Shown: piece by piece, positions 1,573-20,328 of the stretch
Layout: the number at the start of each line of letters is the position of its first letter
Position numbering within the stretch: position 1 is the stretch's first letter
IMG/VR virus record: IMGVR_UViG_3300025652_008197
Location: 1 to 20,328 of that record
Source: a virus
Length of the DNA stretch: 20,328 nucleotides
Reading direction: 5' to 3' (one strand)
Made by a program: the position numbers and the translations under genes
Notes under the pieces: generated by a model
What the model was told of the DNA's origin: nothing
What the model saw: only the letters and a program-made list of their open reading frames with translations
The model's database searches: none

Positions 1573-1595
1573 ATAGCTAACTCCTTGGTGAATGA

Positions 1596-2540: not shown

Positions 2541-2551
2541 ATGAACCTCGT

Positions 2552-2668: not shown

Positions 2669-3706
2669 TTACTTGAGCTGGTCAAGTTCCGCGAGGATGG
2701 CGTCTGCATCACTCTCAGAGAGCATCGGTGATGCAGTCTCAGGTTCTGCTTCTGCAACAGCCGCAGGTGTTGTCTGCGACTTCACAAGCGCGGCCTGCTG
2801 CGCCTGAAGTGCCGCGATCTGTGTTGCGATGTCATTGTCTACGGGCGCGACAGCGACAGGTTCGACAACAGCAGCGACGACAGGTGCTGCAACAGGTGCA
2901 GGTGCAGCAACAGGTGCAGGTGCAGCAACAGTAGCATCTGGAACAACCGCAGACGGCGCTGTCAACGCTGCTGTGGGTGTTGCTGCTGTGTTTGCCAAGC
3001 GTGGCACTGCGATACCGGCGATCTGCTGAATTGCGTTCAGGGCTTTCTGTTCTTCGCCACGGAAGAACTCGCGCTTCACGTATTCCAACGCATCAGGCAT
3101 CTTGGTGAATACATCTGCCGGAACTGGCTTGGAACCTGCTGGCGCAATCGCGACGTCATAGCTGGTGTTAAGACCCTTGCCAGTCTTGGTGATGATGATG
3201 TCCATACCGGCGTTGAGATCGGTAATGTCGATGCCTGAGTTTGGATCGCTTGGATCCTGCAAAGATGTCGCATACATCGTGATCAAATCCATGATCTTAC
3301 CGAAAGTGGTCGGCGTAAGCTCCATCAGAACAGGCGTGTCGGTCTCAGGACGAATGATGACCGGAAAAATGACAGACTTCTTTTCCTTCCAGCTTTCGAA
3401 GAGTTCCTTGCTGTCCTCGTCGGTGGCATTGTCGATGGCCATCTGGATCGCAGCTTTAATAACAGAGGGCTGCTGGAAGACGGTGTCACAGTCGCCAACA
3501 ACAACAAGAGGCTTGCCATTAACGTCGGCTTTGATCCAGTGAACGGCAGAGTCCTGCCAGAACTGTTCGAGCGGCTTTGAAGGGTCAATGAGAAGACGGA
3601 TCTGTGTGCGACCGTCACCTGGCTTTGCGGCTTTGTTACCGCCTCCGCCTTTGTATTTGTTTGCGGCCTGACCGAGCATACGGGTGAGTGCTGGATTGAT
3701 TGCCAT
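2669..3706 (-). CDS. Putative single-stranded DNA-binding protein, gp32-like
   Basis: A 345-residue protein. The call rests on architecture and place, not on a single decisive motif. A glycine/lysine-rich N-terminus (residues 15-32) is followed by a globular core (about 33-225), including QIRLLIDPSKPLEQFWQDSA (35-54) and LMELTPTTFGKIMDLI (127-142). Then comes a flexible Ala/Pro/Val linker (237-289) and an acidic C-terminal tip (SESDADAILAELDQLK) of the kind used by SSB proteins to recruit partners. The zinc site of T4 gp32 is not seen. It directly precedes the exonuclease and recA genes. The start at 3706 has AAGGAA 8 bases upstream. A longer frame to 3799 would translate the leader repeats into a Lys/Ser/Thr run and lacks a ribosome site, so I reject it. 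Confidence 0.55.
   Translation of the reverse strand: MAINPALTRMLGQAANKYKGGGGNKAAKPGDGRTQIRLLIDPSKPLEQFWQDSAVHWIKADVNGKPLVVVGDCDTVFQQPSVIKAAIQMAIDNATDEDSKELFESWKEKKSVIFPVIIRPETDTPVLMELTPTTFGKIMDLITMYATSLQDPSDPNSGIDITDLNAGMDIIITKTGKGLNTSYDVAIAPAGSKPVPADVFTKMPDALEYVKREFFRGEEQKALNAIQQIAGIAVPRLANTAATPTAALTAPSAVVPDATVAAPAPVAAPAPVAAPVVAAVVEPVAVAPVDNDIATQIAALQAQQAALVKSQTTPAAVAEAEPETASPMLSESDADAILAELDQLK
2889..2936. repeat. 18-bp tandem repeat in the Ala/Pro linker of the SSB-like gene
   Basis: GCAACAGGTGCAGGTGCA occurs twice in tandem (2889-2906, 2907-2924), followed by a decayed partial copy. On the coding strand it encodes the AAPAPV linker repeats. Such an in-frame minisatellite can change copy number and so the linker length between DNA-binding core and acidic tip. 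Confidence 0.8.
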
Positions 3707-3714
3707 GTGTGGCG

Positions 3715-3799
3715 TTCCTTTTGTGTTTTGCGTTTTGCGTTTTGAGACTTTGGACTTTGTATTTTCGACTTTGGACTTTGTGCTTTTCGTGCTGACCAT
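3715..3799 (-). promoter_or_regulatory. Repeat-rich, A-rich mRNA leader of the SSB-like gene
   Basis: The leader just upstream of the gene holds two kinds of direct repeat. A 15-base unit (minus strand ACAAAGTCCAAAGTC) occurs twice with a 21-base period (3767-3781 and 3746-3760). Closer to the start a 7-base unit is repeated in tandem (plus strand GTTTTGC at 3725-3731 and 3732-3738, then GTTTTGA at 3739-3745). In the RNA this gives a run of CAAAAC-like units leading into the AAGGAA ribosome site, poor in U and so probably unstructured. T4 gp32 represses its own translation by binding an unstructured leader; this is a candidate for the same kind of control. Confidence 0.45.
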
Positions 3800-4509: not shown

Positions 4510-4510
4510 T

Positions 4511-4786
4511 TTATGTCTCCGGAAAGTGTGAAGTTGTGGGTGTCGGTGTGCTACGTTTACAGCTGTATTTTTCTTCACTCCGGTATCCAAAGATCAGATC
4601 AGCCATGACCTGATTAGGCTGCATGGCAGAGTCAAAGACATGACGCTCCGTCTCTTTGGAAACGGGATTATCTCCCCAGCGGCCGCATTTTAAGCAGCGC
4701 CAGTTTATGCGACCTTCATGATCACGCTCAATTATTCCGCCGACGTGAAACCAGTCACAGACCAGCCTCTTTATGAGTTTCTTCAT
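4511..4786 (-). CDS. Small zinc-ribbon-like phage protein
   Basis: A 91-residue basic protein starting MKKLIKRLVCDWFH and carrying WRCLKCGRWGDNP (29-41). The CxxCG knuckle plus the earlier C10 and H14 could make one zinc site. Small proteins with a C-D-x-x-H segment followed by CxxCG are common unannotated phage genes; no function is known to me. Its start overlaps the DnaE stop codon (ATGA) and it ends one base before the UvsY-like start, so it is translated as part of the same message. GGAG stands 9 bases before the start. Confidence 0.7.
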   Translation of the reverse strand: MKKLIKRLVCDWFHVGGIIERDHEGRINWRCLKCGRWGDNPVSKETERHVFDSAMQPNQVMADLIFGYRSEEKYSCKRSTPTPTTSHFPET

Positions 4787-7700
4787 GCCAACAACTCCGC
4801 TACTTTGTGGAAAATTCTGTTCATGTTTTCCTGCTTTTCTGGCGCGTGATAAATTTCGCCTGGATTGAAGCCGATCACCAGATTTGCATCAAGATCACGG
4901 TTGTAAACGACAGTGCCGGCGGCGTCTGACGCTTTGCCGCGGAACTCTGGCATGAACGTCCGGACTGTTGTCGTGCCCATCAAAACGATCACTGGCGGCC
5001 GCAGCATTTCAATCTCCTCGTCAAGATAAGGCTTGTAGAGGTTGATCTCCTCCGGCAGCAGCTGCGCACCGCGCTTGGGACGCTTCACAAGTGCCGTCCA
5101 GTATGCGTCGGGCACATCGAGCCCGGACTCGTAGATCGCCTCTGTAATGGCGCCTGCAGAGAGCGACAGACCCATAAGACCTGCTGTGTCTTCCTGACCA
5201 TTTGGGCAATCTGCGATGATCATAAAGCGCGCATTGCGTCCGAAGCTCGGCTTGACCGGCATACCGTCTGGTGTCGCAGATGCAGGACCGTGATTGGCGC
5301 GGTAGCGATCAATCAACTCGCCAAGATATTCTTTGGTCGTCTTGTCGTTGTTCATGCTGTGGTTGATAGGCACATGCGCCGCGATCAGACCCGGAAGAAG
5401 TTCGATCTGATCCTTGATGCGACTTGGATGATTTGGCGGCTGCTGAGTAGGATCAACCCATGCAAACGCCCCAACAAGAGTGAGAACCTCACGGTGACGG
5501 ACGTTGCAACTGCGCTTCTCGACCCGTGCAAGAAAGTCATCCATCGACGTAAAGCGACCAGTGACCCGTGCCTTCAGGATCGCATCGCATGTCTTGTCAG
5601 AAATGCCCTTGATCCGCTGGAACGGCATGACAAGACGTGTGTCTGTTGCAATCTCGAACCGACCCGTAGAGTGATTGATGTCAGGCACGTCCACGTTGAC
5701 GCCGCAGGACTTCGCCTCACGAATGATACCGGGCAGCTTGTCGCTGTCGAGAATGGTCAAAGCCGCTGCGAAGAACTCAACAGGAAAATTGGTCTTGAGC
5801 CACATCGCCTGATAGGAGATCAGCGTGTATTCAACGGAGTGACTTTTGTTAAAGCCGTATCCGGCGAAGCCTTCGATCTTGTCAAACAGTTTTCCGGCCC
5901 ACTCCGGCGCGCACTGAATTGTCGCGACGCAGCCATCAACAAAGTTGCCGCGTTCCTTCTTCATCTCCTCTGGCAGTTTCTTGCCCATGATTTTGCGAAG
6001 TTTGTCAGCACCGGCGCCGGTATATCCTGCAATCACTTGCGAGATTTTCATGACCTGCTCCTGATAGACGATCACGCCGAATGTCTCCTCGAGAACAGGG
6101 ATCATGATGGGGTGGTCGTATTCGACGCTCTCAAGACCCTGTTTGCGCTTTGCGAAGCTGTCCATCATGCCTGACTCCATTGGACCTGGACGATAGAGCG
6201 CGGTGCAAGCGGTGATGTCTTCAAACGTGATGCCGCCGTCTGCGCCGAGATCCTTCAGCAACTTGCGCATGCCGCCGCTCTCGAACTGGAAGATTGCATT
6301 GGTGCGACCTTCGGCAAAATTCTTGAGAACATTCGGATCATCGAGCGGAATTGCAGAGATGTCGGGCGTGGTGCCGGTGCGCTCGGTGATATAGTCAACG
6401 CACAGCTTGATCAGGTCGAGCGTAGAGAGGCCCAGGACGTCAACCTTGACGAGACCCTGGTCTTCTACCATGCGCTTGTCAAAGCACACCACAGGGCTTC
6501 CCTTGCGGTCCTCGATCACGGCGCGCTCAACAAGATCACACCCACCAACGACGATACCGGCGGCGTGCTGCGAGAAGTTCCGAATGGTGCCCTCGAGCGC
6601 TTCCATGATCTTCCAGTGTTCTGGATAGGTGTTTGCGAATTTATCAATCTCACCCACCTCGCGACACTCCGGCAAAGATACGTTTGCGCCGTGCTTCTTC
6701 GGCACGAACTTCGAAACCGAATATTCACGATCCGACAGACCCGTAACGCGGCCCACATCACGAATGGCAGATGCAGCACCAAGCGTGCCAAAGTTAGACA
6801 CACCTGCCACGCGGGAGCGGCCGAACTTCTGCACCAGATAATCGACAATCTCGTGCCGCCGTGAGGACATGAAATCAAGGTCAGCGTCTGGAAGATCGAG
6901 ACGCTCGGGGTTGATGAAGCGCTCGAACAGAAGACCAAAGCGGATCGGGTCGCATTCAGTGATGCCCATCAGATACGCAACCAACGAACCACCAACGGAG
7001 CCACGGCCCGGACCAACAAGAATGCCGCTTGTCTTTGCGTGAACGACGATGTCCTGCACCAGCAGAAAGTAGCCGGAGAAGTTCAGCTTCTTGAGGATCT
7101 CCAACTCATACTTGAGGCGGGGTAGATACAGGTTTTTCTGATCCTCGACAGTCGGCTGATGTCCGAAGACGGGCGCAGAGAAGCGCAGCCGCCAACCCTT
7201 CTGACATTCGGCTGTCAGCTTAGTGAACTCGTCCGGCGCCATCTTGGGCAGCGTCACAGCCGCTTTCTCCCAAACGTAGCTGATGCTATCCACAATCGCC
7301 TTTGTGTTCGTCAGACCGTCGCGCCAGAGCTGCCCTGCGCCCGTGACGCCGCGCGCTTCCAAATGCGCCGCTGATGTTTTGACGTGACCGACCATTTCAG
7401 ACAGACCCATCAAGTGCATGTCGCGGTTGTAGCGCGACTTGAACCAACCATCGGTGATCTTGTCGTTGTCGGAAATCGCCGTCATAATCTCTTGCACGTC
7501 TGCACCATCTTCGGTGTAGAGGGCAGGGCGGATCACAAGCGGCAATACGCGCGTTGTGGCGCACAGACCGGTTGCGATCTGATTGACACGACCCCAATAC
7601 GGCGTGTTGATCGGCACAAGCGGTGCGTAGACGTGTTCACTCTGCTTGCGGCAGCGCTTGGCGATGTTCTCAATGTCGGGATGCTCAAGCACAGATGCGC

Positions 7701-8127
7701 CATCACCCAGCACGACCACAAGATCATCGGTCAACTCGGCAAAGAAATCGTCAAAGCTGAGTTTGGGAACGTAATAGAACCGCTGCTCACTGCTGGCGAG
7801 CGTCAACAGGCGGAAAACAATCTTCACACCTGTGTCGTTGCGCGGATAGACCGTCAGGAAGTATTCCCGCGGCATATGCTTTTTCTTCTCGCCCTTGGCT
7901 GGGCGCCAGGTTGCATCATCTGTCAGGCGCAGACGACAACCAATAATCGGACGCAGCCCAGCTTTCTTGGCGGCGTTACTGAAATCAATCAAAGCGGTGA
8001 CGCTCATTGTATCTGTAAGACCAACAACACCCGCTCCGATCGCTTTCGCACCGGAGACGAGTTTGCCTATGGTCAGAATGCTCTCGCCGATGGAGAAGTC
8101 AGAGCGCGCTGCAAGAATGGGGTTCAT
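4783..8127 (-). CDS. dnaE: DNA polymerase III alpha-type (DnaE) with C-terminal UDG-like domain
   Basis: A 1114-residue C-family replicative polymerase. The N-terminal PHP domain (1-200) has lost its usual metal ligands: RSDFS (8-12) replaces HSDYS and TDTMS (38-42) replaces TDHGN. The palm is intact: GPGRGSVGGSLVAYLMGI (372-389), catalytic LPDADLDF (412-419) and VKVDVLGLSTL (560-570, D563), so all three carboxylates are present. ALYRPGPMESGMMDSF (643-658), IVYQEQVMKI (686-695) and FAGYGFNKSHSVEY (754-767) are typical DnaE blocks. A helix-hairpin-helix tail starts at IKGISDKTCDAIL (839-851). The usual OB and tau-binding domains are absent. Instead residues about 965-1110 resemble family 4/5 uracil-DNA glycosylases: ADCPNGQED (972-980), ALVKRPKRG (1012-1020), PPVIVLMGTTT (1044-1054), FNPGEIYHAPE (1087-1097). 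Start overlaps the upstream stop (TAATG). Confidence 0.93.
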   Translation of the reverse strand: MNPILAARSDFSIGESILTIGKLVSGAKAIGAGVVGLTDTMSVTALIDFSNAAKKAGLRPIIGCRLRLTDDATWRPAKGEKKKHMPREYFLTVYPRNDTGVKIVFRLLTLASSEQRFYYVPKLSFDDFFAELTDDLVVVLGDGASVLEHPDIENIAKRCRKQSEHVYAPLVPINTPYWGRVNQIATGLCATTRVLPLVIRPALYTEDGADVQEIMTAISDNDKITDGWFKSRYNRDMHLMGLSEMVGHVKTSAAHLEARGVTGAGQLWRDGLTNTKAIVDSISYVWEKAAVTLPKMAPDEFTKLTAECQKGWRLRFSAPVFGHQPTVEDQKNLYLPRLKYELEILKKLNFSGYFLLVQDIVVHAKTSGILVGPGRGSVGGSLVAYLMGITECDPIRFGLLFERFINPERLDLPDADLDFMSSRRHEIVDYLVQKFGRSRVAGVSNFGTLGAASAIRDVGRVTGLSDREYSVSKFVPKKHGANVSLPECREVGEIDKFANTYPEHWKIMEALEGTIRNFSQHAAGIVVGGCDLVERAVIEDRKGSPVVCFDKRMVEDQGLVKVDVLGLSTLDLIKLCVDYITERTGTTPDISAIPLDDPNVLKNFAEGRTNAIFQFESGGMRKLLKDLGADGGITFEDITACTALYRPGPMESGMMDSFAKRKQGLESVEYDHPIMIPVLEETFGVIVYQEQVMKISQVIAGYTGAGADKLRKIMGKKLPEEMKKERGNFVDGCVATIQCAPEWAGKLFDKIEGFAGYGFNKSHSVEYTLISYQAMWLKTNFPVEFFAAALTILDSDKLPGIIREAKSCGVNVDVPDINHSTGRFEIATDTRLVMPFQRIKGISDKTCDAILKARVTGRFTSMDDFLARVEKRSCNVRHREVLTLVGAFAWVDPTQQPPNHPSRIKDQIELLPGLIAAHVPINHSMNNDKTTKEYLGELIDRYRANHGPASATPDGMPVKPSFGRNARFMIIADCPNGQEDTAGLMGLSLSAGAITEAIYESGLDVPDAYWTALVKRPKRGAQLLPEEINLYKPYLDEEIEMLRPPVIVLMGTTTVRTFMPEFRGKASDAAGTVVYNRDLDANLVIGFNPGEIYHAPEKQENMNRIFHKVAELLA

Positions 8128-8321: not shown

Positions 8322-8847
8322 TCGCATTCTCCTTCAGAGAGATAAGACCATCATTACTTATGACAGCGCCCACATGTGTAAGCGCGTAAATGGCGACACG
8401 CGCATAAATTCTCGCGGTCTCGGGCTGCAATTTCAAATGCGAGACATAGGCCATCGTCAGTGTCTCGCGGTCGATCGGACGTTTGAGCCGAAGCAGAAGG
8501 TGACAGGCCACGCGCAACGTCGGCATCGTCTTGTCAAACGGGTTTTCGCCACGCTGTAACTTGCCAACAACGTCGAAGTTGCCATTGTCCAGCTTGTCCA
8601 ACAAATTCTGAACGCGCTGCGGCAGGCGAAAGGCGGGACGATCTTCGACAACCTCGGGTGCTTTCAAGACAGGTTTGAAAGCAGGCTCCGCAATGCCAAA
8701 CTTTGCCCGAAGTAACTGCGCATTGTGCAGCGCGACAGGACCGCAATTGCCCATGAAGCTACATGATTTACAGGTCAGCTCCGCCTTTTGAAACGCGATT
8801 GCTGATCCGAAACAGCCCGGCGCGTAGTTTGGAATGATACTGCTCAC
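8314..8847 (-). CDS. Cys-motif protein of unknown function following the sigma-like gene
   Basis: A 177-residue protein with an N-terminal motif GCFGSAIAF (11-19) then CKSCSFMGNC (26-35), giving C12, C26, C29 and C35, which could hold zinc or an iron-sulfur cluster. The rest (75-170) looks helical and may include a winged-helix-like end. PGCFGSA followed by CxxCxxxxxC is a pattern I recall from unannotated phage and plasmid proteins but I cannot name a family. It starts with GTG whose bases overlap the sigma-like gene's stop (GTGA), with AAGGA about 8 bases upstream. Being coupled to the sigma-like gene, it may act in transcription, but that is inference. Confidence 0.7.
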   Translation of the reverse strand: MSSIIPNYAPGCFGSAIAFQKAELTCKSCSFMGNCGPVALHNAQLLRAKFGIAEPAFKPVLKAPEVVEDRPAFRLPQRVQNLLDKLDNGNFDVVGKLQRGENPFDKTMPTLRVACHLLLRLKRPIDRETLTMAYVSHLKLQPETARIYARVAIYALTHVGAVISNDGLISLKENANA

Positions 8848-9488
8848 TTGTTCATCCTTTTAGTGACCTTCTCGATCTCCTTGAAGATTTTCGTGCGCTC
8901 GGTGCGCGTTGCACCCATGACGCCAAAAACATGAGAGGCCATCAAGCTGCGCGACACGGAATAGGTAATGTCCATTGACCGGGCATGTTCCGCTTTTGCA
9001 TCAAGACGTCTCAACTCCTCAAGGATCTCCTCTGGCGGGTTTGCGATCATCGTAACGAATGACCGAGCCCGTGGTGTTAGGCGACTGCACACCAAATCGA
9101 GATGCTGAGACTTGGCGATATGCTCGACGGGATCGACGGCGTCGGTGTCAGCGATAATATCACCAAGAGAACCAGCATCATCGCCTTCAGATCCTTTGGT
9201 TTGCGCATCCAAAGACAAGGCGGTGATTTCGCTGTGAACCTTTTCGAACTGGTTCAGAACATGCCGGTTAATGTGCAATTTCATACCGCGCATCAGGTAT
9301 GTCGAAAACTTGACGCCTTGCTCTGGGTCGAAATTGTCACGCGCGATACACCAAGCACACCATAGCTCCTGCTCGATGTCAGAAAACTGGGCAGTTTTTG
9401 CACCCAAGCTCCTCAATCTACGCATAACTTTGTGAGCGAACCACAGCACAAGGCGGCGGCTCGCTTCTGGATCGGCATGATTGCTCAC
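8844..9488 (-). CDS. Phage-encoded sigma-70-family-like factor
   Basis: A 214-residue protein with a clear sigma region 2: FSDIEQELWCAWCIARDNFD (35-54) followed by FDPEQGVKFSTYLMRGMKLH (53-72), matching the sigma pattern FDPxxGxxFSTYxxxxIR. Region 2 binds core RNA polymerase and melts the -10. An acidic linker (98-120) is followed by a helical end (LTPRARSFV, 137-145, to 210) that could be a diverged region 4, but the usual helix-turn-helix is not convincing. A sigma with only region 2 and a poor region 4 resembles T4 gp55, which reads -10-only late promoters. The start is GTG overlapping the CobS-like stop (GTGA). Confidence 0.7.
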   Translation of the reverse strand: MSNHADPEASRRLVLWFAHKVMRRLRSLGAKTAQFSDIEQELWCAWCIARDNFDPEQGVKFSTYLMRGMKLHINRHVLNQFEKVHSEITALSLDAQTKGSEGDDAGSLGDIIADTDAVDPVEHIAKSQHLDLVCSRLTPRARSFVTMIANPPEEILEELRRLDAKAEHARSMDITYSVSRSLMASHVFGVMGATRTERTKIFKEIEKVTKRMNK

Positions 9489-10693
9489 TCTGGAAAAATC
9501 CTGCTCATGTATTCAACAGCTGCCCGGCGGTTCACGCGCGACAGGCGGTTTGCGTAAGACAACTCAAGTCCGGTTGAGAACTTGCCGCCGAGGGAGCCGG
9601 CGATAATACAAGCACCGATCAACTCGCGCGGCGAGACAGGCATGTCAACTTTGCCCTCTGCGAACATACGGCGCATTTCGTTGCCGAACTTCACAACCTT
9701 CGCAGCGTCACTGCGCGGCACACCGGTCTTAGCAACGAGAATTGTCTCCTCGATCTTCGGATCGAGATATTTGACTTCGTCCACAATGCGGAAGCGTGAG
9801 TAGTTTGCAGCGTTCTGGATCAACGTGCCTTGATAGAGGCCAGTTTCGTCACCAATGCCGTTTGTGTTGCCGGTTGCGCAGATGCGGAACTCAGGATGCG
9901 GAATGATCTTGCGCAACGCAGGAGGTGCATCTTTAATCAACAAGGGCTCGCCTTCGAGAACTGACTGATACACGGCAGTTACAGATGGCATCGCGAAGTC
10001 ATATTCATCTGCGCAATACACCCATCCATTGATCATTGCTGTTGGCAATGGGCCAAGCTGAAACTCGGTCGCGCCGTCACGCACTGTCCACTGCCCGAGA
10101 ATTTCGCTCTCCTGCATGTTGATGGTGTGCTGAACGCGCAAGAACGGACGCTTTGTGCGCGCTGCGACCTGCTGCAACACTGACGTCTTACCAGTGCCGT
10201 GCATGCCCCAGAGATAAACCGGAAGGTTCAGCTCCATGCCGATGATGACCTTCTTGACGAGGTCAATGTCGAACACATACGCATGATCGACCTGCGGCAT
10301 ATAAAGCAGAGAGTCGGTGTCGTGACCGGTGAACATCTTGATGTTGATCGGATTGCCTTTTGCGTTGCGCGCAGCGGGCGCATTGCCAAGATCGAACACG
10401 TCATGAAACGGCGCTTGTGAAAAGGTGAAAGACTTACCAGAGGACACAAGCGTATCCTGACCAGCTTTTGCATTTGCGACGGCTTCGCGCATTTCTTTTT
10501 CCTTTTTGGCAAGTGCGTTCTTTGCCGTCTCGGAGAGCAGCGATGCGTCAGGATATTCCTGCTGATAGCGGTCAATCGTCCAGTCTGGGTGATTGCGCTT
10601 GATATGCGATTGCACGGAGTGAACGCGCACGTTGTCGATGTGGCACAATACCCGATCGTCCGTCGCGGTTGCGGCGTTTGCTTGGTCAGTCAT
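9485..10693 (-). CDS. cobS: CobS-like MoxR-family AAA+ ATPase
   Basis: A 402-residue AAA+ ATPase. The N-terminus has the zinc-finger-like CobS leader VLCHIDNVRVHSVQSHIKRN (15-34), then a helical linker and the ATPase core: Walker A GMHGTGKT (163-170), Walker B VYCADE (225-230), sensor 1 ICATGNTN (271-278) and an arginine finger region NYSRFRIVDE (297-306). Cellular CobS works with CobT in cobalt insertion during aerobic B12 synthesis. Phage homologues are often named so, but with no other B12 genes present a MoxR/VWA chaperone or protein-remodelling role is more likely. The partner CobT-like gene lies directly upstream, 112 bases away. The ATG at 10693 has GAGGG 9 bases upstream. Confidence 0.9.
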   Translation of the reverse strand: MTDQANAATATDDRVLCHIDNVRVHSVQSHIKRNHPDWTIDRYQQEYPDASLLSETAKNALAKKEKEMREAVANAKAGQDTLVSSGKSFTFSQAPFHDVFDLGNAPAARNAKGNPINIKMFTGHDTDSLLYMPQVDHAYVFDIDLVKKVIIGMELNLPVYLWGMHGTGKTSVLQQVAARTKRPFLRVQHTINMQESEILGQWTVRDGATEFQLGPLPTAMINGWVYCADEYDFAMPSVTAVYQSVLEGEPLLIKDAPPALRKIIPHPEFRICATGNTNGIGDETGLYQGTLIQNAANYSRFRIVDEVKYLDPKIEETILVAKTGVPRSDAAKVVKFGNEMRRMFAEGKVDMPVSPRELIGACIIAGSLGGKFSTGLELSYANRLSRVNRRAAVEYMSRIFPE

Positions 10694-10805: not shown

Positions 10806-13127
10806 TTAACCCAGAAGTGCTTTAATTTCGGACATGACCTGTGTTGGCAGATCATCCAGGTTGCTCAAGATCACATGGTTCTTGTAGAACTTGGAGACGT
10901 TGCGATCCTTGATACCAATGCCGATACACTCGATGCCGATCTTCTCCAGATCCTCGACAACAGAGCGCAAGTGCGGACCTGCGTTGCTTGCGCCAGACGG
11001 GGCGCCATCAGACAGAACCAGAATGACTTTGCGCTTCTCCTGACGGCGCATCAGACGCTCGGCTGCAATCTGCAGGGACTCGCCGTCTACGTTTGTGTTC
11101 AGTCCTCGCTGAGCATTCATCATATAGGCGAAACGCTTCTTGATCACCGTATTCACGCGCTCGTCGAAGGACTTGTAGATCGGCATAATCAGAGGAACTG
11201 TGCGGTGAAAACCGACACTTCCAGTTTTCATTTCATCCATGACGGTAGAGCGCTCTTTTTTCGGTATGTCGCCCCAGTCACCTGTTGTGAAGCCAATGGC
11301 CTCGTTTGGAATGTTCACCCGGTCGAGTGTGCGCACAAGCGCATAGGTCGCGATGGCAGCGAGATAGAACTTTTCGCCATACATCGAGCCGGAGTTGTCA
11401 AACAACAGCGAAACGGCGGTGTTTTTCGACGTATGCTCCTGCTTCTGAGTGAAGACACGCGGATCGCCCATCGGAACACGATACAGAGATGCCGCATGCA
11501 ACTTGCCACTGCGGTGCCCAGGGATACGAACGACATGGTTTTGAGACGCCATGATGCGCTCGATGTCCTTCTGCATCCGACCTGCCATCTGATCAGTCTT
11601 TTCCTCCATCTCCGGTATCCAAAGATCGTTGATGTTCTCCGGCGGCTTGACCGGCTCGATCCGGTCAAACTCGCGTGTGAAGACGGTGTAATCAGACCGC
11701 GACATGACGTCCTGCGCGTCTGTTGAAATCAGCGCTGCCATGCTGGACGACAGATCGACAGACGCGAAGGCATCATCATCGAAGTCAAACAGTGACTTAC
11801 CTGATCCAGCGCCCACGCCACCGCCATCGCCGTCCTCGTCCGAGGTGTCCTGGCCATGCTCTACGTCACCATCCACATCGGTGACGGCTTTGACCTCGAC
11901 TAAGTCGCCGTCTGCATCTTCGGCATCGTCCGTATCCCCACTGGCGTCGCTGTCTGACCCTTCGGTGTCGCCAAGATCGCCACTATCGGCATCTTCTTCG
12001 ACATCTCCATCATCGCTGTCGGAGCCACCATCGCTTTCGTCCCCAGCGTCAGCGTCACCGTCATCTTCGCCGCTGTCTTCATCGGTGTCTTCTGTCTCTC
12101 CGTCGTCTTCGTCTTCGTCGGTGTCTGTGCCTTCGGCCTCATCTGTATCACCTTGCTCACTGTCTTCGTCCTCTTCGTCAGATGTGCCGGTATCGCCGGA
12201 CTCGCCGTCTTCACTGTCATCCTCGGTGTCTTCATCCGAGTCCTCTTCATCGTCAGAAGATGCGCCGCCGGAAGCGTCTTGATCGTCGCTCTCCTCGTCT
12301 TCATCTGCCTCGGACTCGGAGTGATCACGCTCACCATCGCCATCGCCTTCGCCAGCTTCTTGATCGGGCTTGTCCTGGGACTCGCCGCTATCATCGCTGT
12401 CGTCGGTGTCGCTATCGTCACTGTCTTGCTGTGGCGGTGGCGGGGGAGGTGTCTGCTGCTGTGGAGGTTCAGGCGGATAAAGAATTGCCTCGAGTTCCTT
12501 GGCGAGCACAAGTGTCTGCGCGGTTGTTGTCGCGGTCTTGATGTCCGCGAGGAACTTTGGCGATAGCTTCTTCATCATTTCATCAACTACCGGATTGCTC
12601 CAGTGATCGTGATCGTCCATCCAATCCTGCATCTCGGTGTGACCGGAAAGAGCGCGCATCGCCGGAACAAGAATGTATTGAAACTTTTCCTTGTCGTCTG
12701 CGGCTTTTGCAATCGCCTCGTCAGAGACCTTGATCAGGAAGTGCTTACGGACGTTTGAAAGGTTGCGCGCAGAGCCAGGGAAGACTTTGACCATCTCCTT
12801 CTCAATCATCGTATCCTCTACGATGTTGTGCAGACCATGCAGACGATTGTCCTCCATCGAACCGGGCTTGTGACCAGTTTGAGTGGAGAAGTCGGTGAAA
12901 AGAACATGCGCAACTTCGTGGTCAATGAAACCGTGAATCGCTAGAATAAACTCAGGTGAGGCGTTGTCCGAGATGTTCGGAATATTGACAATCTCGGGCT
13001 TTTTCGTATGGGCGTTTGCACGCACATACGCCTGACTTCCGCGCTGCGTTACACGCAAACCTTGCCCACTTAGCAGTGGAACCAGCTTGGTGATTACCTC
13101 GCGTAATTCTATGATTTCACGGTTCAT
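10806..13127 (-). CDS. cobT: CobT-like von Willebrand A protein with zincin motif and acidic tract
   Basis: A 773-residue protein. The N-terminal part (1-215) carries FIDHEVAHVLFTDF (67-80), a full HExxH metalloprotease motif (H70, E71, H74), followed by HNIVEDTMIEKEM (100-112), which could supply a third ligand. Residues 216-235 are Pro/Gln-rich. Residues about 236-437 are an acidic tract of Asp, Glu, Ser, Gly and Thr, as in CobT. The C-terminal VWA domain (565-773) has the MIDAS motif DNSGS (577-581) and VILVLSDGAPSG (701-712). VWA/MoxR pairs remodel or activate protein targets; here the phage pair may act on a host or virion protein. GGAG stands 7 bases before the ATG. Confidence 0.88.
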   Translation of the reverse strand: MNREIIELREVITKLVPLLSGQGLRVTQRGSQAYVRANAHTKKPEIVNIPNISDNASPEFILAIHGFIDHEVAHVLFTDFSTQTGHKPGSMEDNRLHGLHNIVEDTMIEKEMVKVFPGSARNLSNVRKHFLIKVSDEAIAKAADDKEKFQYILVPAMRALSGHTEMQDWMDDHDHWSNPVVDEMMKKLSPKFLADIKTATTTAQTLVLAKELEAILYPPEPPQQQTPPPPPPQQDSDDSDTDDSDDSGESQDKPDQEAGEGDGDGERDHSESEADEDEESDDQDASGGASSDDEEDSDEDTEDDSEDGESGDTGTSDEEDEDSEQGDTDEAEGTDTDEDEDDGETEDTDEDSGEDDGDADAGDESDGGSDSDDGDVEEDADSGDLGDTEGSDSDASGDTDDAEDADGDLVEVKAVTDVDGDVEHGQDTSDEDGDGGGVGAGSGKSLFDFDDDAFASVDLSSSMAALISTDAQDVMSRSDYTVFTREFDRIEPVKPPENINDLWIPEMEEKTDQMAGRMQKDIERIMASQNHVVRIPGHRSGKLHAASLYRVPMGDPRVFTQKQEHTSKNTAVSLLFDNSGSMYGEKFYLAAIATYALVRTLDRVNIPNEAIGFTTGDWGDIPKKERSTVMDEMKTGSVGFHRTVPLIMPIYKSFDERVNTVIKKRFAYMMNAQRGLNTNVDGESLQIAAERLMRRQEKRKVILVLSDGAPSGASNAGPHLRSVVEDLEKIGIECIGIGIKDRNVSKFYKNHVILSNLDDLPTQVMSEIKALLG

Positions 13128-13173: not shown

Positions 13174-13440
13174 TTACTTTTCATAATACGACAAAACGCT
13201 ACGGTCTTCAAAAGGATAGAAGAGGGTTGTTTCACCCCACGCCGCCAGCGCGACTAAAACAGAAACGCCATCAAGGCTTCCCCATTTTAGATCCGCACCG
13301 GCGATAGAGAACGTATCAGTCACGGTCATTTTTGCGACCAACTCACATCCAGCGTCATAAGAAATCTTTTCGACGCGACCGCGATTATCCATGTTTATTC
13401 TTTCAATAAAGGACTGTCGCGGCTTTTCAGGCAGCGACAT
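13174..13440 (-). CDS. Small hypothetical protein after the XRE regulator
   Basis: An 88-residue protein of no family I recognise. It contains one cysteine, a short hydrophobic strand VSVLVALAAW (59-68) and an end rich in aromatic residues (LFYPF, LSYYEK), suggesting a small beta-rich fold. It starts 10 bases after the stop of the XRE gene and ends 46 bases before the CobT-like start. The start is uncertain: neither the ATG at 13440 nor an internal ATG at 13392 (giving 72 residues) has a strong ribosome site. Confidence 0.55.
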   Translation of the reverse strand: MSLPEKPRQSFIERINMDNRGRVEKISYDAGCELVAKMTVTDTFSIAGADLKWGSLDGVSVLVALAAWGETTLFYPFEDRSVLSYYEK

Positions 13441-13450: not shown

Positions 13451-13852
13451 TTAGGAGCTAAAAAGGGTGAAAAGCTCCTTCTCCATATTTTCAGTCAGTT
13501 CTGGGTCTTTTCCGCCAGTTGCGCTTCGGATCACCTCTAGGATGTTCTTTTCAGACTTGCTCAGCGCGCTACCGGAAAACGAAAGGATCATGCGCACCGT
13601 GTCTTCGGAATAGAACTGCTCAATGGCAAGACGGAACAGATACGCAGGATCGACGTCCAGTGCTTTAGCGAGTAGGGGAACCCTGTCAAGTGACAGTTTC
13701 ACATCGCCTTGCTTGAGCATGGATAGGATGTTTGGATTAGGGAACCCGGCTTCTCGGGCAATCTCTTTTTGGAGCTTTGTGCCTTGAAGTTCCTTGATCC
13801 GGTCTCTTACGAAAACAGAGACCTTTGATAGTTCGTCTACGGTGTCGGACAT
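13451..13852 (-). CDS. XRE/Cro-CI-type helix-turn-helix regulator
   Basis: A 133-residue DNA-binding protein. Residues about 14-75 form a lambda-repressor-like domain: FVRDRIKELQGTKLQKEIAR (14-33) with the turn AGFPNPNILSMLKQGD (35-50), then SLDRVPLLAKALDVDPAYLF (54-73). The rest is helical and probably for dimerisation. The ATG at 13852 has GGAG 6 bases upstream; a frame opening at 13864 is possible. It is read divergently from rep and is the first gene of the long unit that holds cobTS, sigma and dnaE, so it is well placed to govern both plasmid replication and phage replication genes. Its target is unknown; palindromes at 13889-13904 and 14013-14028 are candidates. Confidence 0.8.
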   Translation of the reverse strand: MSDTVDELSKVSVFVRDRIKELQGTKLQKEIAREAGFPNPNILSMLKQGDVKLSLDRVPLLAKALDVDPAYLFRLAIEQFYSEDTVRMILSFSGSALSKSEKNILEVIRSATGGKDPELTENMEKELFTLFSS

Positions 13853-13888
13853 TTCATACTCCATTTCTATCCGTCTTGTGTCGCTTAG

Positions 13889-13910
13889 TTTAGTTATAGC
13901 TAAAGTTATA
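13889..13910 (-). promoter_or_regulatory. Candidate promoter/operator of the XRE gene
   Basis: On the minus strand two TATAAC words lie 12 bases apart (GTATAACTTTAGCTATAAC). The inner one sits within TTTAG-TTATAG-CTAAA (13889-13904 on the plus strand), a 5-bp inverted repeat with a 6-base centre, about 40 bases before the XRE start. A -10 box overlapped by a small palindrome suits autoregulation by the XRE protein. Confidence 0.4.
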
Positions 13911-14012
13911 CGGACTGCATGTTGCCAAACGACATTTAATTCATCAATGACTTATTCCCATAATCTCACATCGTCAATGCAGGTTTTCGTAAAAAATTAG
14001 TCACACGTATAG

Positions 14013-14028
14013 GTTATGTTAACATAAC
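14013..14028. promoter_or_regulatory. Perfect 16-bp palindrome, candidate operator
   Basis: GTTATGTTAACATAAC is a perfect palindrome in the middle of the divergent rep/XRE region, about 80 bases before the rep -10-like box. It is short for a terminator and has no loop, which suits a dimeric DNA-binding protein such as the XRE regulator or Rep. Confidence 0.5.
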
Positions 14029-14109
14029 ATGGATTACAGGCGTTAATTCCACTGGTGTTATATATGTGTTACTTAGAGGTGTTAAGGCGCAAGAAGTGCC
14101 TATTTTGGC

Positions 14110-14115
14110 TATAAT
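14110..14115 (+). promoter_or_regulatory. Candidate rep promoter -10 box
   Basis: Plus strand TTTTGGCTATAATAATC contains a perfect TATAAT 26 bases before the first iteron. No TTGACA-like hexamer stands at the right distance. Its place upstream of the iterons would let Rep binding block its own transcription, a common arrangement for iteron plasmids. Confidence 0.45.
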
Positions 14116-14140
14116 AATCAGCCACTTACAATATGACCCT

Positions 14141-14290
14141 ATGTGTGAAGTGGGACTGTTTCATGTGTAGAGTGGGATTCGTTTATGGGTGAAGTGTCGT
14201 TACGTGATGATGGTATGGGTGAAGTGTCGTTACGCTTAGCCGTTATGGGTGAAGTGTCGTTTGATTTGACTCTATGGGTGAAGTGTCGTT
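14141..14290 (+). repeat. Iteron array of six direct repeats upstream of rep
   Basis: Four copies of the exact 17-mer ATGGGTGAAGTGTCGTT begin at 14185, 14215, 14245 and 14274, spaced 30, 30 and 29 bases. Two diverged copies precede them: ATGTGTGAAGTGGGACTGTTT at 14141 and ATGTGTAGAGTGGGATTCGTTT at 14163, spaced 22 bases from each other and from the first perfect copy. All six point the same way, towards rep, whose ATG is 30 bases beyond the last. Direct repeats of this size next to a RPA-type initiator are the expected Rep binding sites of an iteron origin. Confidence 0.9.
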
Positions 14291-14320
14291 TCTTGCGGGC
14301 AGTTCGAAAAGGGAATCCTT

Positions 14321-15340
14321 ATGCTCAAGCCTCTTCTACCAGATCGCCACCCTACCCCGGACTTTTTCATTTGCGACATCTTTGACGCGACGCCCAAAGG
14401 CGACATGGCATCTATGGAGCATCCGATCTTCTCATTGTCGACCAAGCCTGATCTGCGGCCGCGGCACTACGAACACAACGGGATCTCCATTTCAATCAAA
14501 CCCTCTTCGGATGGTCTGGCAACGGTGCATGACCGGGACATTTTGATATTCTGCATCAGCCATCTGGTGCGCGCGATCAACGCCGGTCTTGAGCCCTCCC
14601 CTATCGTGCGCTTCAACGCATCCGAACTTTTGAAATCCACAAACCGAATGACGACCGGTCGTGGCTATGAGCTTCTCAAATCTGCCCTAGAGCGACTGCG
14701 CGGCACGACCATCAGCACCAACATCATCACAGGCGGCAAAGAGGTCTTCGACACCTTCGGTTTGATCGAGCGGGCGCGTGTGGTGCGCGAGACGCGCGAC
14801 GGGCGCATGCAGGAGATCGAGGTCAAGCTCTCAGACTGGGTTTTTAACGCGATACGTGCGCAAGAGGTGCTTACGCTACACCGAGACTACTTTCGACTCA
14901 GGAAGCCCTTAGAGCGGCGCATATACGAGCTGGCGCGCAAGCATTGCGGCCACCAACGGGACTGGCGGATTAGTCTAGGCTTGCTCAAGAAGAAATGCGG
15001 ATCCGGATCGACTTCATTCGAGTTCAAGCGCCTGATCGGCGTGATTATCGCAGAGGACATTGAACACGACCACATGCCAGATTATGCCCTGCGGTTTTCC
15101 GAGGACGAAACTCAGGTCGTGTTCACGAACCGAGGCACAGTTGGTCAGGTTTTGGAGAAGGTCGTGATCGAGCCGCTTGATCCGGACATCTATGATACTG
15201 CGCGTGTATTGGCGCCGGGATGGGACGTGCGCATGATCGAGGCGGAGTGGCGCAGCTGGGCTACAGAAAAGCCCAAGAACGCGGAGTCTGCATTCCTGGG
15301 CTTTTGTCGCAAGTGGTATGAGAAGCGCGGTGCGCCTTAA
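14321..15340 (+). CDS. repA: Plasmid replication initiator, RPA family
   Basis: A 339-residue initiator, the only plus-strand gene in the window. Residues about 30-265 match the RPA (replication initiator protein A) pattern: HPIFSLSTKPDLRPRHYEHN (34-53), DRDILIFCISHLVRAINAG (71-89), TGRGYELLKSALERLRGTTI (112-131), YFRLRKPLERRIYELARKHC (190-209) and SLGLLKKKCGS (218-228). The end (310-336) holds AEWRSWA and FLGFCRKWYE, the usual C-terminal Trp-rich tail. RPA proteins bind iterons as winged-helix initiators. AAGGGA stands 6-7 bases before the ATG. The iterons directly upstream support function. Nothing looks broken. The stop codon overlaps the stop of the convergent gene. This gene type belongs to plasmids and not to standard lytic phages. 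Confidence 0.92.
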   Translation: MLKPLLPDRHPTPDFFICDIFDATPKGDMASMEHPIFSLSTKPDLRPRHYEHNGISISIKPSSDGLATVHDRDILIFCISHLVRAINAGLEPSPIVRFNASELLKSTNRMTTGRGYELLKSALERLRGTTISTNIITGGKEVFDTFGLIERARVVRETRDGRMQEIEVKLSDWVFNAIRAQEVLTLHRDYFRLRKPLERRIYELARKHCGHQRDWRISLGLLKKKCGSGSTSFEFKRLIGVIIAEDIEHDHMPDYALRFSEDETQVVFTNRGTVGQVLEKVVIEPLDPDIYDTARVLAPGWDVRMIEAEWRSWATEKPKNAESAFLGFCRKWYEKRGAP

Positions 15341-15546: not shown

Positions 15547-15743
15547 TTCATTTCCTCGTATAACCACACCCACTCTCCCTGAGAGTAGATACCGCGTCTC
15601 AAAACTACTCCAAACCAGGAGACACTTCCGCACTCGAGACGCACCGGAAGCCAGCAGAAATGCGTGTGCCAATTAGAAAGGCGGCGATGCTCTTCGAGAC
15701 GCCTTTCTGCTTTATCTTCCTCTGTTTTGAACCGAAAGATCAT
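15543..15743 (-). CDS. Small Trp-rich hypothetical phage protein
   Basis: A 66-residue protein. It begins with a charged helix (TEEDKAERRLEEHRRLSNWH, 7-26) followed by a Trp-rich beta-like part (FCWLPVRL, 29-36; SWFGVVLRRG, 42-51; WVWLYEEMK, 58-66). Short W-H-x-x-F-x-W-x-P-V-R proteins are frequent in tailed phages with no known role, as I recall. It overlaps the ligase stop by ATGA at its start and overlaps the next gene by 4 bases at its end, so it is part of the ligase message. Confidence 0.65.
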   Translation of the reverse strand: MIFRFKTEEDKAERRLEEHRRLSNWHTHFCWLPVRLECGSVSWFGVVLRRGIYSQGEWVWLYEEMK

Positions 15744-17281
15744 GCCGCGTCCTTCTCGCCCTGCTTGTCGTCACGCCACATAATAAAGCGGGGATGACGC
15801 AGTGAGCCGTCTGGCGTGACTTCGTGAAACTTCACCTCGATCATACCGCCGACGACCGTGTAGGCAGGTGGGATCAACTTGTTTGCATCCCAGACAATGC
15901 CCTTTGTGTCGGGTCGATGATCGAACGCACCCGGATCATGAATTGCGGCCGCGGCAATCTCGCGTGTAAAGACGCGCCATATCTCGTCACGCTGCGCATC
16001 GGAAAATCCACCACCCACGCGAACCTCGACACCATTACGATTTACGATCAGCCCGCCCAGGCTCTGCTCATACTTGGTGCCGGACTCGCCCGGATATGCA
16101 CCAATCACGATCAGGTCTTCGGTTTCTTCGGCTTTCAGTTTCAGCCAAGACCGAGACTTGCGCTTCTCATAAAGTGCATCTGGGTCTTTCACCATCGCGC
16201 CTTCGAGCATCTTCGGGCCGCCGGTGTTCGTGTCGATCATTCCTGCGAGCAGTTCGGCCTCGCGCTTCTTGTCGCCACGCGCGAGATAGACGGCCAGCGG
16301 TTTTTCCAGCATCGCTTCAAAGAAGGTCTGAATTTCTTTGTCCGAATTGACGAAATACTGAGGCACCTTCTGAACAGGACCATCTGACGTCAGCAGTTCG
16401 TGGGCGATCTGAACGAACCGGTTGAGATATGCGCGCCGTTTGCGCAGCGGCAGCCCGTGCGTTCCAGGTTCGTTGAAATCGTCATAGGGCATCATGTCGT
16501 AAAGATGCAGTTCCGCACCCTCTGCGTCCGCATCCTTGCGTCTGAGCGCGCCTGTGTCCTTGAACAGACCCATCATAGCTTCGCCGTCGAGCATGAATGA
16601 GATTGCGCCAAGCTGTGTCTCACCGCCCATAAAGGAGCGCACGCCCGTCATGAACTCGCACAAACCGGGATCGACGGTGACAGCATGGCGCGCGACATCA
16701 AGAACCGGCTGAACAAGAAACTGCAACGCCGGAACAACTTTGCCAGAGCGCGTGAAGAAAGCACCCTCGCCGTTCTTGACCAACAAGGTGTTGCGCTGAC
16801 CGTCCAGCTTTGGTTCGATCACCCACGGGAACTCTTTGATATATCGCTTCTCGTATGCCTGTGCGCGCTGAACAGCAAAGCCAGGCACCAGACCAGGCAC
16901 TGCGAGATTGATCGTCGTCTCACCGATGCCGCAACGCAGATCCTTGAGAACGATCCGTGACAGCAGCATTGCGCCTTCTGTGCCGATATGACCCATGATC
17001 TTTGTCAACCGCGCCTGCGCTTCGGCGCCGGTAATCTCGCGTGCGATCAGCTGGTCAAGAAACATGAATACGCCATCCCAATCCACAGTGAATGGCGTAG
17101 GGCCAGTTGGGATAGCGCCCTTTGGTTTGATACCGTATGTCTTGAACGGGTCGTAGGCATACGTCAGCACCTTGCGACCAAACCCAGATGCGGTGACATC
17201 CTTTAAAAGCGACTCCTTCTCGAGGCGCGCGCCCGTTGCCGCAATTTCCTCGATCTTCGCAAATATCTCTGCGTGGTTCAT
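15740..17281 (-). CDS. ATP-dependent DNA ligase
   Basis: A 513-residue ligase that seals nicks using ATP. The N-terminal helical DNA-binding region (1-145) resembles T4 ligase. Nucleotidyltransferase motifs follow: motif I EPKLDGQR (156-163, with K158 the AMP-accepting lysine), LDGEAMMG (231-238), LHLYDMMPYDD (258-268), motif IV EGAMVK (360-365) and motif V SWLKLK (379-383). The OB domain runs to the end (DLIVIGAYPG, 389-398; MIEVKFHEVT, 480-489). The stretch 320-358 between motifs III and IV is somewhat long for this group. GGAG stands about 8 bases before the ATG, which overlaps the previous stop (ATGA). The WGR-domain and Cys-cluster genes lie directly upstream in the same unit. Confidence 0.93.
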   Translation of the reverse strand: MNHAEIFAKIEEIAATGARLEKESLLKDVTASGFGRKVLTYAYDPFKTYGIKPKGAIPTGPTPFTVDWDGVFMFLDQLIAREITGAEAQARLTKIMGHIGTEGAMLLSRIVLKDLRCGIGETTINLAVPGLVPGFAVQRAQAYEKRYIKEFPWVIEPKLDGQRNTLLVKNGEGAFFTRSGKVVPALQFLVQPVLDVARHAVTVDPGLCEFMTGVRSFMGGETQLGAISFMLDGEAMMGLFKDTGALRRKDADAEGAELHLYDMMPYDDFNEPGTHGLPLRKRRAYLNRFVQIAHELLTSDGPVQKVPQYFVNSDKEIQTFFEAMLEKPLAVYLARGDKKREAELLAGMIDTNTGGPKMLEGAMVKDPDALYEKRKSRSWLKLKAEETEDLIVIGAYPGESGTKYEQSLGGLIVNRNGVEVRVGGGFSDAQRDEIWRVFTREIAAAAIHDPGAFDHRPDTKGIVWDANKLIPPAYTVVGGMIEVKFHEVTPDGSLRHPRFIMWRDDKQGEKDAA

Positions 17282-18445: not shown

Positions 18446-19528
18446 CTATTTGGCGTAGGGGTTGCGCAATCTGAGCCGAATATCCAAAGATGGTGCCCAG
18501 ACATCTGCCTTGTAGAAAGCCTCGCGCACCACCTCTGACGGCACCTCGTTGGGGTCTTTGCCCTGTGGCAAAAGCGCGATCCTCGCCTTCAGCCCAATCC
18601 CCGTCAGGATCTTACCGGCATCAAGGGCAGCCAGGAGTGCGCTCCTTTCCCCGTCCCACATGATTGTTACGGTCTTCAAGCCTCTGCTCTTGAGGATGTT
18701 AAAGCGCCCCAACTGATCATCGCCCACCATTGAGCCGTAAGACAGATGCTTGCCGAAAGACCCAACCGGAACGATGTGGCGCAGATCAACTTCCTCATCC
18801 ATTGCCATCTTGATCGCAGCAACATCGAGCGCGCCTTCGCCCATCACGACATGATTTGTCGCCATGACATTCTGGCCATTGAGCAGATAGCGACCAGTGC
18901 CGGGCAGCTCCTTTGGAAACAGGTATTTCATCTTGCTGGTGCCGGTGATGTCGCGACCCTGAAAAGTCTTCAACTTGCCATCCAGATCGAACACCGGAAT
19001 GATCACGCGATTGCCGAAGTTCTGCATCTGCCAATCGCCGTCAGCGTCTCTGAAACGCCACCAACCGGACTGACAATATCGCAAGGCGAAATAACGCACG
19101 ATGTCGGGTCCGAAGCCCCTCTGTTCCAGATATTCCAGGTTGGACCCGTCCTCGAGCGGCAGCGCATCAGAAATCGGCAGCACAACTGTGTCGTAATCAA
19201 CCGCCACCAGCGCCTCGCGCTTTGGCCGCCAGCCCTGCTCTGTCAAAAGCTCCCGTGCGAAATCGAAGGTGTCACGCCAAACCACACCGCCAAGATGTTC
19301 ATGCACGAAGGTTAGCTTGTTGAAGGCCTTGTTACAGACGAAGCAGTTTCCGCGGCCTGTCTCTGTGCCGAAGTATGTGCGCCAGCGGGAGTCACCGCAG
19401 GCCGGGCAGACCTTGATGTTCAACTGCACGCCGGACGAGCCGCGCGTGACGCGAAACGGAATGCTCTCGCGGCTGAGAAAGAACTCCATGTCCAGCTCTG
19501 CCTCGAACTCCTCGACGTCTAGCTTCAT
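18446..19528 (-). CDS. DnaG/gp4-type DNA primase
   Basis: A 360-residue primase without a helicase domain. The zinc-binding domain has CPAC (41-44) and CFVC (62-65), four cysteines as in phage primases. The TOPRIM domain follows: VVMGEGALDVAAI (227-239, E231), VTIMWDGERSALLAA (287-301, D292) and GKDPNEV (323-329), the expected metal-binding acidic residues. RVIIPVFDLDGKLKTFQGRD (174-193) is the usual strand before TOPRIM. It would make RNA primers for the lagging strand. The ATG overlaps the SLOG gene stop (ATGA), and the helicase gene lies one gene further upstream, so primase and helicase are split genes here, unlike T7 gp4. Confidence 0.9.
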   Translation of the reverse strand: MKLDVEEFEAELDMEFFLSRESIPFRVTRGSSGVQLNIKVCPACGDSRWRTYFGTETGRGNCFVCNKAFNKLTFVHEHLGGVVWRDTFDFARELLTEQGWRPKREALVAVDYDTVVLPISDALPLEDGSNLEYLEQRGFGPDIVRYFALRYCQSGWWRFRDADGDWQMQNFGNRVIIPVFDLDGKLKTFQGRDITGTSKMKYLFPKELPGTGRYLLNGQNVMATNHVVMGEGALDVAAIKMAMDEEVDLRHIVPVGSFGKHLSYGSMVGDDQLGRFNILKSRGLKTVTIMWDGERSALLAALDAGKILTGIGLKARIALLPQGKDPNEVPSEVVREAFYKADVWAPSLDIRLRLRNPYAK

Positions 19529-19890
19529 ATCACTTCCCCATTTCTATCGAACCGCATCAGCGGATATCTGAACTCATTCGCCAGATCGCACATGTGTTGC
19601 GTTCCATTGGCGCCAGGAAGCGCCACGACCAATTGCGGTTTGTAATGCAGCAACATCTTGCGGTTTCGCACACGACCGGCCAGACCGCCGTAATAGCTGT
19701 TCCAGTCGGCAGGACACCTATAGGTCACGATGTCATTCTGCTCAGCCCATCGACCGGCGGCCTTATCAACACCCGGCGCGTCGCCATGCACCAGCTCGGT
19801 GACACTTATGTTACCATGCAGCCAATCGAGCGCCCGCCAGACAATCGCTTCCTCGTCAAACTTTGACCCGCCACTGACCAGAATGCGCAT
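19525..19890 (-). CDS. YspA-type (DUF2493) SLOG-family protein
   Basis: A 121-residue Rossmann-like protein. MRILVSGGSKFDEEAIVWRA (1-20) and VHGDAPGVDKAAGRWAEQ (34-51) are the family's two glycine motifs, followed by RCPADWNSYYGGLAGRVRNR (58-77) and LVVALPGANGTQHMCDLA (87-104), ending the nucleotide-binding fold. SLOG proteins are thought to bind nucleotide-derived ligands or NAD/ADP-ribose-like molecules and are common in phages and near stress systems; the ligand of this one is unknown. It is set between helicase and primase, overlapping the first by one base (TGATG) and the second by ATGA, so it is made together with the primosome. Confidence 0.88.
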   Translation of the reverse strand: MRILVSGGSKFDEEAIVWRALDWLHGNISVTELVHGDAPGVDKAAGRWAEQNDIVTYRCPADWNSYYGGLAGRVRNRKMLLHYKPQLVVALPGANGTQHMCDLANEFRYPLMRFDRNGEVI

Positions 19891-20328
19891 CAGATCACAC
19901 GCCCCAGAACTTTTTTCACAAACTGCATCTTGCTACGATCCTGCTTGAGACGCAGAGAGAAGCCGTCTTCGGTGTTCCGGGATGCAAGCCAGGTCAAACG
20001 CGCCTCACCGATCTGTTTCTCGGCCTCTGTGGCGGAGATACCCAAGAACACGTCTGCGGTGCGCACCTTGTTCCAGTCGTCACCAACGTCTGTCGCTTTA
20101 GCCGTCGCGGCCTTGGCGCCGTCACGGTTGGTCTGTGTCGCTGTCAGCATGGCGCAATTAAACTCAAAGGCGATGGCGCGCAGGTCGATATAGATAGAGC
20201 GCAGGTTGTCGATCAGATTGTCAGAGCGATATTCCGCGGCCATGATGTCTGCGTAGTCTGGAATGATCAGATCAAGAATGATCCCTTCCGAGCGATATCC
20301 TTCGATGATCCGTGCAAGTTGACTTGGT
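19890..20328 (-). CDS. DnaB-like replicative helicase, C-terminal part (cut by window edge)
   Basis: The open frame runs off the right edge, leaving 145 residues of the C-terminal ATPase domain. The first visible part has a Walker B-like ILDLIIPDYADIM (just after the edge), comparable to LIVIDYLQLM in DnaB, then a helix NLIDNLRSIYIDLRAIAFEF and the strand AMLTATQTNR, where DnaB has the conserved SQLNR-type sensor. FSLRLKQDRSKMQF near the end is the usual last beta strand with its KxR finger. It would unwind the fork 5'-3'. Only a few residues follow (VKKVLGRVI). The N-terminal domain and Walker A lie outside the window. The stop overlaps the SLOG start by one base. Confidence 0.85.
   Translation of the reverse strand, partial: PSQLARIIEGYRSEGIILDLIIPDYADIMAAEYRSDNLIDNLRSIYIDLRAIAFEFNCAMLTATQTNRDGAKAATAKATDVGDDWNKVRTADVFLGISATEAEKQIGEARLTWLASRNTEDGFSLRLKQDRSKMQFVKKVLGRVI

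Follow-up and report, generated by a model that had tools for sequence, protein, structure and literature searches.

The window, i.e., the whole 20,328-bp virus record analyzed here, very probably belongs to the replication module of a tailed phage-plasmid from the pLM21S1/RHEph10 lineage in which RepC has been swapped for a plasmid RPA cassette in a maintenance slot. This slot lies between the genes for a DNA ligase and an XRE-CobT pair, and the same swap recurs in a second virus. Neither the RPA swap at a fixed slot nor its recurrence in another virus seems to have been described before. The original prediction had regarded the combination of a plasmid Rep and a DnaE replisome as undescribed, which does not hold: RepA and DnaE are found in one genome in SSU5, the pairing is known in pLM21S1 (PMC5537653) and a syntenic "repA, dnaE, dnaG, parB, recA" module has been reported for enterobacterial elements (PMC13221032).

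An RPA replicon within a phage replisome

The initiator gene matches PF10134 with residues 26-257 of its product (E = 3e-84), covering 228 of the 228 profile positions, and phrog_23447, "replication initiation protein" (E = 3e-74). The product shares 73-74% identity with an initiator from a Rhodobacterales plasmid and with the RPA of the viral contig L002. Directly 5' of the gene, in the window as in L002, lies the proximal iteron block; its four copies in the window start at 14184, 14214, 14244 and 14273, with spacings of 30, 30 and 29 nt, while TRF calls a 22-bp array at 14140-14196. In 1000 dinucleotide-type shuffles of positions 14100-14320, any 12-mer had two copies at most, vs. four in the real sequence. 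A six-copy iteron array had been predicted; the array is real, but the six copies consist of four strong and two degenerate ones. A motif of the type GTGAAGTG(T/A)CGTT at ~30-nt spacing is also found upstream of RPA in L002 and in the Rhodobacterales loci L005 and L180, and the distal ~22-nt block is present in L002 and L180, too. The iteron motif and two-block spacing of the window are those found 5' of RPA in L005 and L180. Two features that characterize an RPA plasmid replicon, an RPA-domain initiator and cognate upstream direct repeats, are present, and the window RPA is a putative working initiator of an iteron origin.

The reverse-strand genes around RPA make up a complete phage replisome; a sigma factor and a CobS/CobT-like pair are encoded among them (Table 1). 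Profiles or homologues identify RecA/UvsX, exonuclease, SSB, DnaE, ligase, primase and helicase, all on that strand. Thus the profile matches, the repeat analysis and the flanking genes bear out the prediction of an RPA-type initiator with iterons set in a phage replisome, and a plasmid initiator and phage genes occur on one molecule. The helicase gene, which runs off the window, continues in contig L179 at >99% identity. Capsid, terminase and par genes and circular ends were all absent from the 20.3-kb window, and a megablast search of the whole window against phages returned one matching place only, amounting to 9% of the window. The window DnaE also carries a C-terminal domain of the uracil-DNA-glycosylase superfamily (residues 963-1073; PF03167, E = 2e-7); the annotation of some Acinetobacter relatives instead shows a UDG gene of its own at this place, next to an inserted gene with a NUMOD4 domain.

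Table 1. Genes and sequence elements of the window, listed by position.
Feature	Position	Strand	Evidence or remark
RecA/UvsX-like recombinase	484..1635	-	PF00154 E=2e-34
5'-3' exonuclease	1596..2591	-	PF02739 E=7e-28
gp32-like single-strand DNA-binding protein	2669..3799	-	phrog_1192 E=1.5e-36
DnaE, DNA polymerase III alpha	4783..8127	-	PF07733 E=1e-72, PF17657 E=4e-55
Sigma factor	8844..9488	-	phrog_351 E=3e-20; annotated sigma factor in pLM21S1
CobS-like MoxR-type AAA+ ATPase	9485..10693	-	PF07728 E=4e-18; phrog_249 E=7e-83
CobT-like VWA protein, slot anchor	10806..13127	-	PF11775 E=6e-39
88-aa protein between regulator and CobT	13174..13440	-	positional counterparts are small ORFs in L007, L010, L002
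HTH/XRE-type regulator, resident phage gene	13451..13864	-	phrog_8 E=5e-7
Perfect 16-bp palindrome GTTATGTTAACATAAC, candidate operator	14013..14028	.	between regulator and iterons
Distal iteron block, two degenerate copies, ~22-nt spacing	14140..14183	+	TRF
Proximal iteron block, four exact 18-bp copies of TATGGGTGAAGTGTCGTT	14184..14302	+	
RPA-family plasmid replication initiator, 339 aa	14321..15340	+	PF10134, phrog_23447
ATP-dependent DNA ligase, other slot anchor	15740..17281	-	phrog_114 E=3e-93
DNA primase	18446..19528	-	phrog_47 E=9e-50; 69% to RHph_X66 primase
DnaB-like helicase, C-terminal part, runs off window	19890..20327	-	80% over 143 aa to RHph_X66 helicase

Membership in a phage-plasmid lineage

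The gene order ligase-slot-XRE-small ORF-CobT-CobS-sigma-DnaE is identical in the window, pLM21S1, RHph_X66 and the M. oryzae and Shinella elements, and the window shares the conserved XRE-CobT-CobS-sigma-DnaE order that characterizes the pLM21S1-type lineage. Some relatives with this order are plasmids known as complete circles (pLM21S1, M. oryzae, Shinella), and others are isolated phages (RHph_X66, RHEph10, B1VFA). The window DnaE is 65-67% identical to DnaE of rhizobial phage-plasmids; identity ranges from 61 to 67% for 115-122-kb rhizobial phages and plasmids and from 36 to 43% for SSU5, AB_1 and related elements. Plasmid pLM21S1 has been described as a RepC-type phage-plasmid related to RHEph10 (PMC5537653, PMC4447125), and B1VFA and V1VFA-S have been described as phage-plasmid-like, carrying parA, parB and repC (PMC12509600). 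Members of the group are thus known in virion and plasmid form (PMC12509600, PMC5537653); mitomycin C did not induce the one plasmid-like relative tested (PMC4447125). Based on homology to these relatives, the best reading of the window's own element is that it, too, would be a phage-plasmid.

Like the window, pLM21S1 of Sinorhizobium sp. LM21, RHEph10, RHph_X66, B1VFA, V1VFA-S and pRlX6 combine this replisome order with a plasmid initiator between ligase and XRE-CobT; their ParA is located elsewhere. Unlike the window, they have rhizobial hosts and carry RepC and a small RHH gene in place of RPA with iterons. The SSU5/pHCM2 supergroup and the AB_1 phage-plasmids also share the order of helicase, primase, ligase, CobT, CobS, DnaE, exonuclease and RecA, with the replisome accompanied by a plasmid Rep in SSU5 and by ParA in the Acinetobacter elements. 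However, in addition to the lower DnaE identity, RepA of SSU5 is of the Rep3 type and is found downstream of RecA, outside the slot. In the AB_1-type Acinetobacter locus L211 (5832-8127), the position corresponding to the slot, from ligase to CobT, is occupied by genes for ParA, a small site-specific recombinase and an HTH protein.

Contents of the slot between ligase and XRE-CobT

The slot was surveyed in DnaE loci from viral contigs and genomes. RepC was recognized in 29 loci, in every one of which it is opposite to CobT, and it lies between ligase and XRE wherever the ligase is in view. No match to RepC or RHH was found in the window, where RPA occupies the slot as it does in L002. Because RepC is also missing from the lineage members L002, L085 and L037, the window is a variant of the lineage rather than an outsider. 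The slot of L085, a 112.5-kb contig of Paracoccus litorisediminis, contains a Rep3-type initiator (PF21205, E = 4e-15; PF01051, E = 9e-8), and P. litorisediminis was the one close relative recovered by a terminase search of 395 genomes of the Paracoccus family. Three further loci have a short protein in the slot; two of these proteins are of the winged-helix type and weakly resemble replication initiation proteins. L037 has a tyrosine integrase (123-1271, reverse strand; phrog_1, E = 9e-30), which suggests a switch from plasmid to integrated persistence. The first third of the Rep3 initiator of L085 (2924-4078, forward strand) repeats the peptide AKNEVFGE, as if iterons were inside the gene.

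In all these variants the regulator and CobT are unmoved; consequently, XRE is considered a phage gene, and the exchanged unit comprises the initiator and its origin. Since the proximal iteron block adjoins RPA upstream in both RPA-bearing viruses, this unit can be specified as iterons plus RPA. We consider it reasonably likely that the position beside XRE is a dedicated lysogeny slot in which initiators from unrelated families (RepC, RPA, Rep3) and even an integrase interchange while the regulator and replisome stay constant, so that a single recombination event could give a virus a new incompatibility group, host range or way of persisting. For phage-plasmids, exchange of initiators has been proposed as a means of avoiding incompatibility (PMC10879196). 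Here it is traceable at one fixed site: RepC is common, RPA has been taken up at least twice and in either orientation, Rep3 is present in Paracoccus and an integrase in one viral contig. Initiator swapping in temperate viruses is thus directly testable at the slot, and typing of phage-plasmids by replicon alone would miss relatives.

The slot variants also bear on the proposal that RPA and its iterons also serve as the start site of lytic replication, at which the phage helicase and DnaE would be loaded, so that there would be one origin instead of two modes. The location of the origin inside the replisome operon fits such a proposal, as does the failure to identify a separate phage origin in the window. 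Nevertheless, RPA, RepC, Rep3 and the integrase interchange under a constant replisome, which suggests that the replisome is independent of any one initiator, and RepA of SSU5 is located elsewhere. A single origin for both purposes is therefore unlikely.

A second RPA-bearing virus

Contig L002 (IMG/VR 3300037566_000044; also G001) is 62,872 bp long and has the order ligase, RPA (73%), XRE and CobT. It also encodes TerL (75% identical to that of pLM21S1), portal, scaffold, capsid, tape measure and tail proteins, as well as ParA (69%) and two ParB-like proteins homologous to those of pLM21S1. The virion structural and partition genes that it had been proposed to look for are thus present in a relative, L002, as they are in pLM21S1, though none is in the window fragment. 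L002 shares with the window the slot, the iteron motif with core GTGTGAAGTGTCGTTTT, the proximal 30-nt block and the distal block. It differs in the opposite orientation of RPA, in having six proximal iterons instead of four and in lacking DnaE on the contig.

Could the window be a misassembly, in which the assembler attached the RPA origin of a plasmid to a phage contig whose true initiator is a different one? Positions 1-12085 and 19368-20328 of the window are also present in contigs >99.6% identical to it, and no second contig of the same species spanning 12086-19367 was found, so the slot is known from one assembly and the analogous L002; moreover, similar RPA genes are common in Rhodobacterales, with an RPA match in 49 of 120 sampled genomes. 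On the other hand, both borders fall between intact genes, and at the compact right junction the stop codons of RPA and of the small convergent ORF to its right overlap. Given this overlap and the same order in L002, an unrelated assembly with RPA at the same slot, a misassembly is highly improbable, and the rest of the slot content (the regulator and the 88-aa ORF) is the phage's own.

Partition genes and relatives also weigh on a second possibility, that a strictly lytic phage captured RPA as cargo, for instance to disturb RPA plasmids resident in the host, and is not itself maintained as a plasmid. The window has no par genes and the phage supplies a full replisome, as such a phage would. 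Yet relatives with RepC in the slot are found as closed circular plasmids, L002 encodes ParA and ParB-like proteins, a complete iteron origin accompanies the initiator, and RPA substitutes for RepC instead of being added to it. Captured cargo is accordingly quite improbable, and replacement of RepC in a phage-plasmid is the reading retained below.

A single RPA acquisition common to the window and L002 was rejected. A tree built from 39 RPA proteins places L002 together with two genome loci of Rhodobacterales (100/99) and the window together with a plasmid of Limimaricola (93/78); forcing the two viral proteins into one clade costs 40 log-likelihood units (p-AU 0.0005). For DnaE, contig L042 stands in for L002: it comes from the same metagenome, has a similar GC content and begins in CobT where L002 stops, leaving complementary CobT pieces, from which both probably belong to one genome. 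L042 is sister to the RepC-bearing L018 (100/99) and the window is paired with L013 (95/99), while one clade of RPA carriers plus L013 is rejected (p-AU 0.019). The ligase tree, which includes L002, leans to separate acquisitions, with 4% of the bootstrap trees uniting the window and L002 and no strongly supported branch separating them, and by itself does not decide the number of acquisitions. Together, the phylogenies suggest that the viruses acquired RPA from plasmid-type genes at least twice, in opposite orientations, and may also be compatible with gene flow from phage to plasmid. Searches of viral contigs with CobT and primase added almost only near-identical fragments.

Proposed mode of persistence and the XRE regulator

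In iteron plasmids, the initiator binds the iterons and starts low-copy replication using host enzymes. We propose that the slot of this lineage is reserved for a quiet-state maintenance gene, usually RepC. The sequences show that RepC and its small RHH partner have been replaced here by a plasmid cassette of iterons and RPA. In the quiet state, RPA would bind its own iterons and open the origin, where host replication enzymes would most likely act, and the copies would be segregated by a separate ParA/ParB system. The repressor-like XRE protein would probably hold the long reverse-strand operon off; upon induction, its release would let this operon yield phage helicase, primase, DnaE, ligase, SSB and RecA, with which the phage would replicate lytically. 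The repressor role of XRE is probable from the example of other phage-plasmids, which turn to lytic growth once a C1-type repressor is lost (PMC10090143, on a different Roseobacter element). Of the predicted phage-plasmid with two replication modes, the first part is supported by the circular-plasmid and phage relatives and by L002; the division of labor between Rep and DnaE is an inference.

The regulator is 52% identical to that of pLM21S1, and its HTH_3 match of 18.8 bits is below the Pfam cut-off of 23 bits. As predicted, the HTH gene is divergent from RPA, but it is not part of the plasmid unit: it is on the replisome strand, belongs to the replisome module and is kept beside CobT in relatives whichever initiator they carry. 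Arrival of XRE together with RPA was rejected, as XRE also accompanies every other initiator in the relatives. The palindrome upstream of the regulator is the sole perfect palindrome of at least 14 bp in the window. Because no identical counterpart was found upstream of the regulator in relatives, its role as an operator is a guess. RHph_X66-type relatives have another inverted repeat, AAATAAGT-N8-ACTTATTT, ~140 bp upstream of the regulator match.

Host and other carriers of RPA

The relatives of its RPA make Rhodobacterales the most likely host of the virus. The Rhodobacterales RepA-type (RPA) plasmid of L. variabilis (NZ_CP139696) has an RPA 73% identical to that of the window and the same upstream iteron motif, although it is without annotated phage genes in the 41 kb inspected. 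The Rhodobacter phages RcCronus, RcRhea and RcSaxon, for which an extrachromosomal prophage has been proposed (PMC4882933), are likewise tailed phages that carry a partition gene and an initiator of the RPA family (38-40% identical). In contrast to the window, they belong to a different lineage, with 36-kb genomes that have a primase and no DnaE in the annotated stretch. The 20.4-kb Synechococcus phage Ssp-JY41 (PP438431.1, L158) carries an RPA initiator, ParA and a YoeB toxin, and none of its genes is annotated as structural; it resembles a plasmid of Alphaproteobacteria more closely than it does a complete phage.

Besides L002, an RPA profile search of viral contigs returned just four small contigs, all of which lack this replisome. 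These four (L003, L004, L175 and L176) are 5-10 kb long and carry a divergent RPA initiator, which in L003 and L175 is accompanied by a serine recombinase and by a protein that weakly resembles the small subunit of a terminase (phrog_51, E = 1.5e-3 in L003). Contigs of the L003/L175 type are possibly packaging-parasite plasmids; L175 contains two copies of the set of RPA, recombinase and terminase-like genes.
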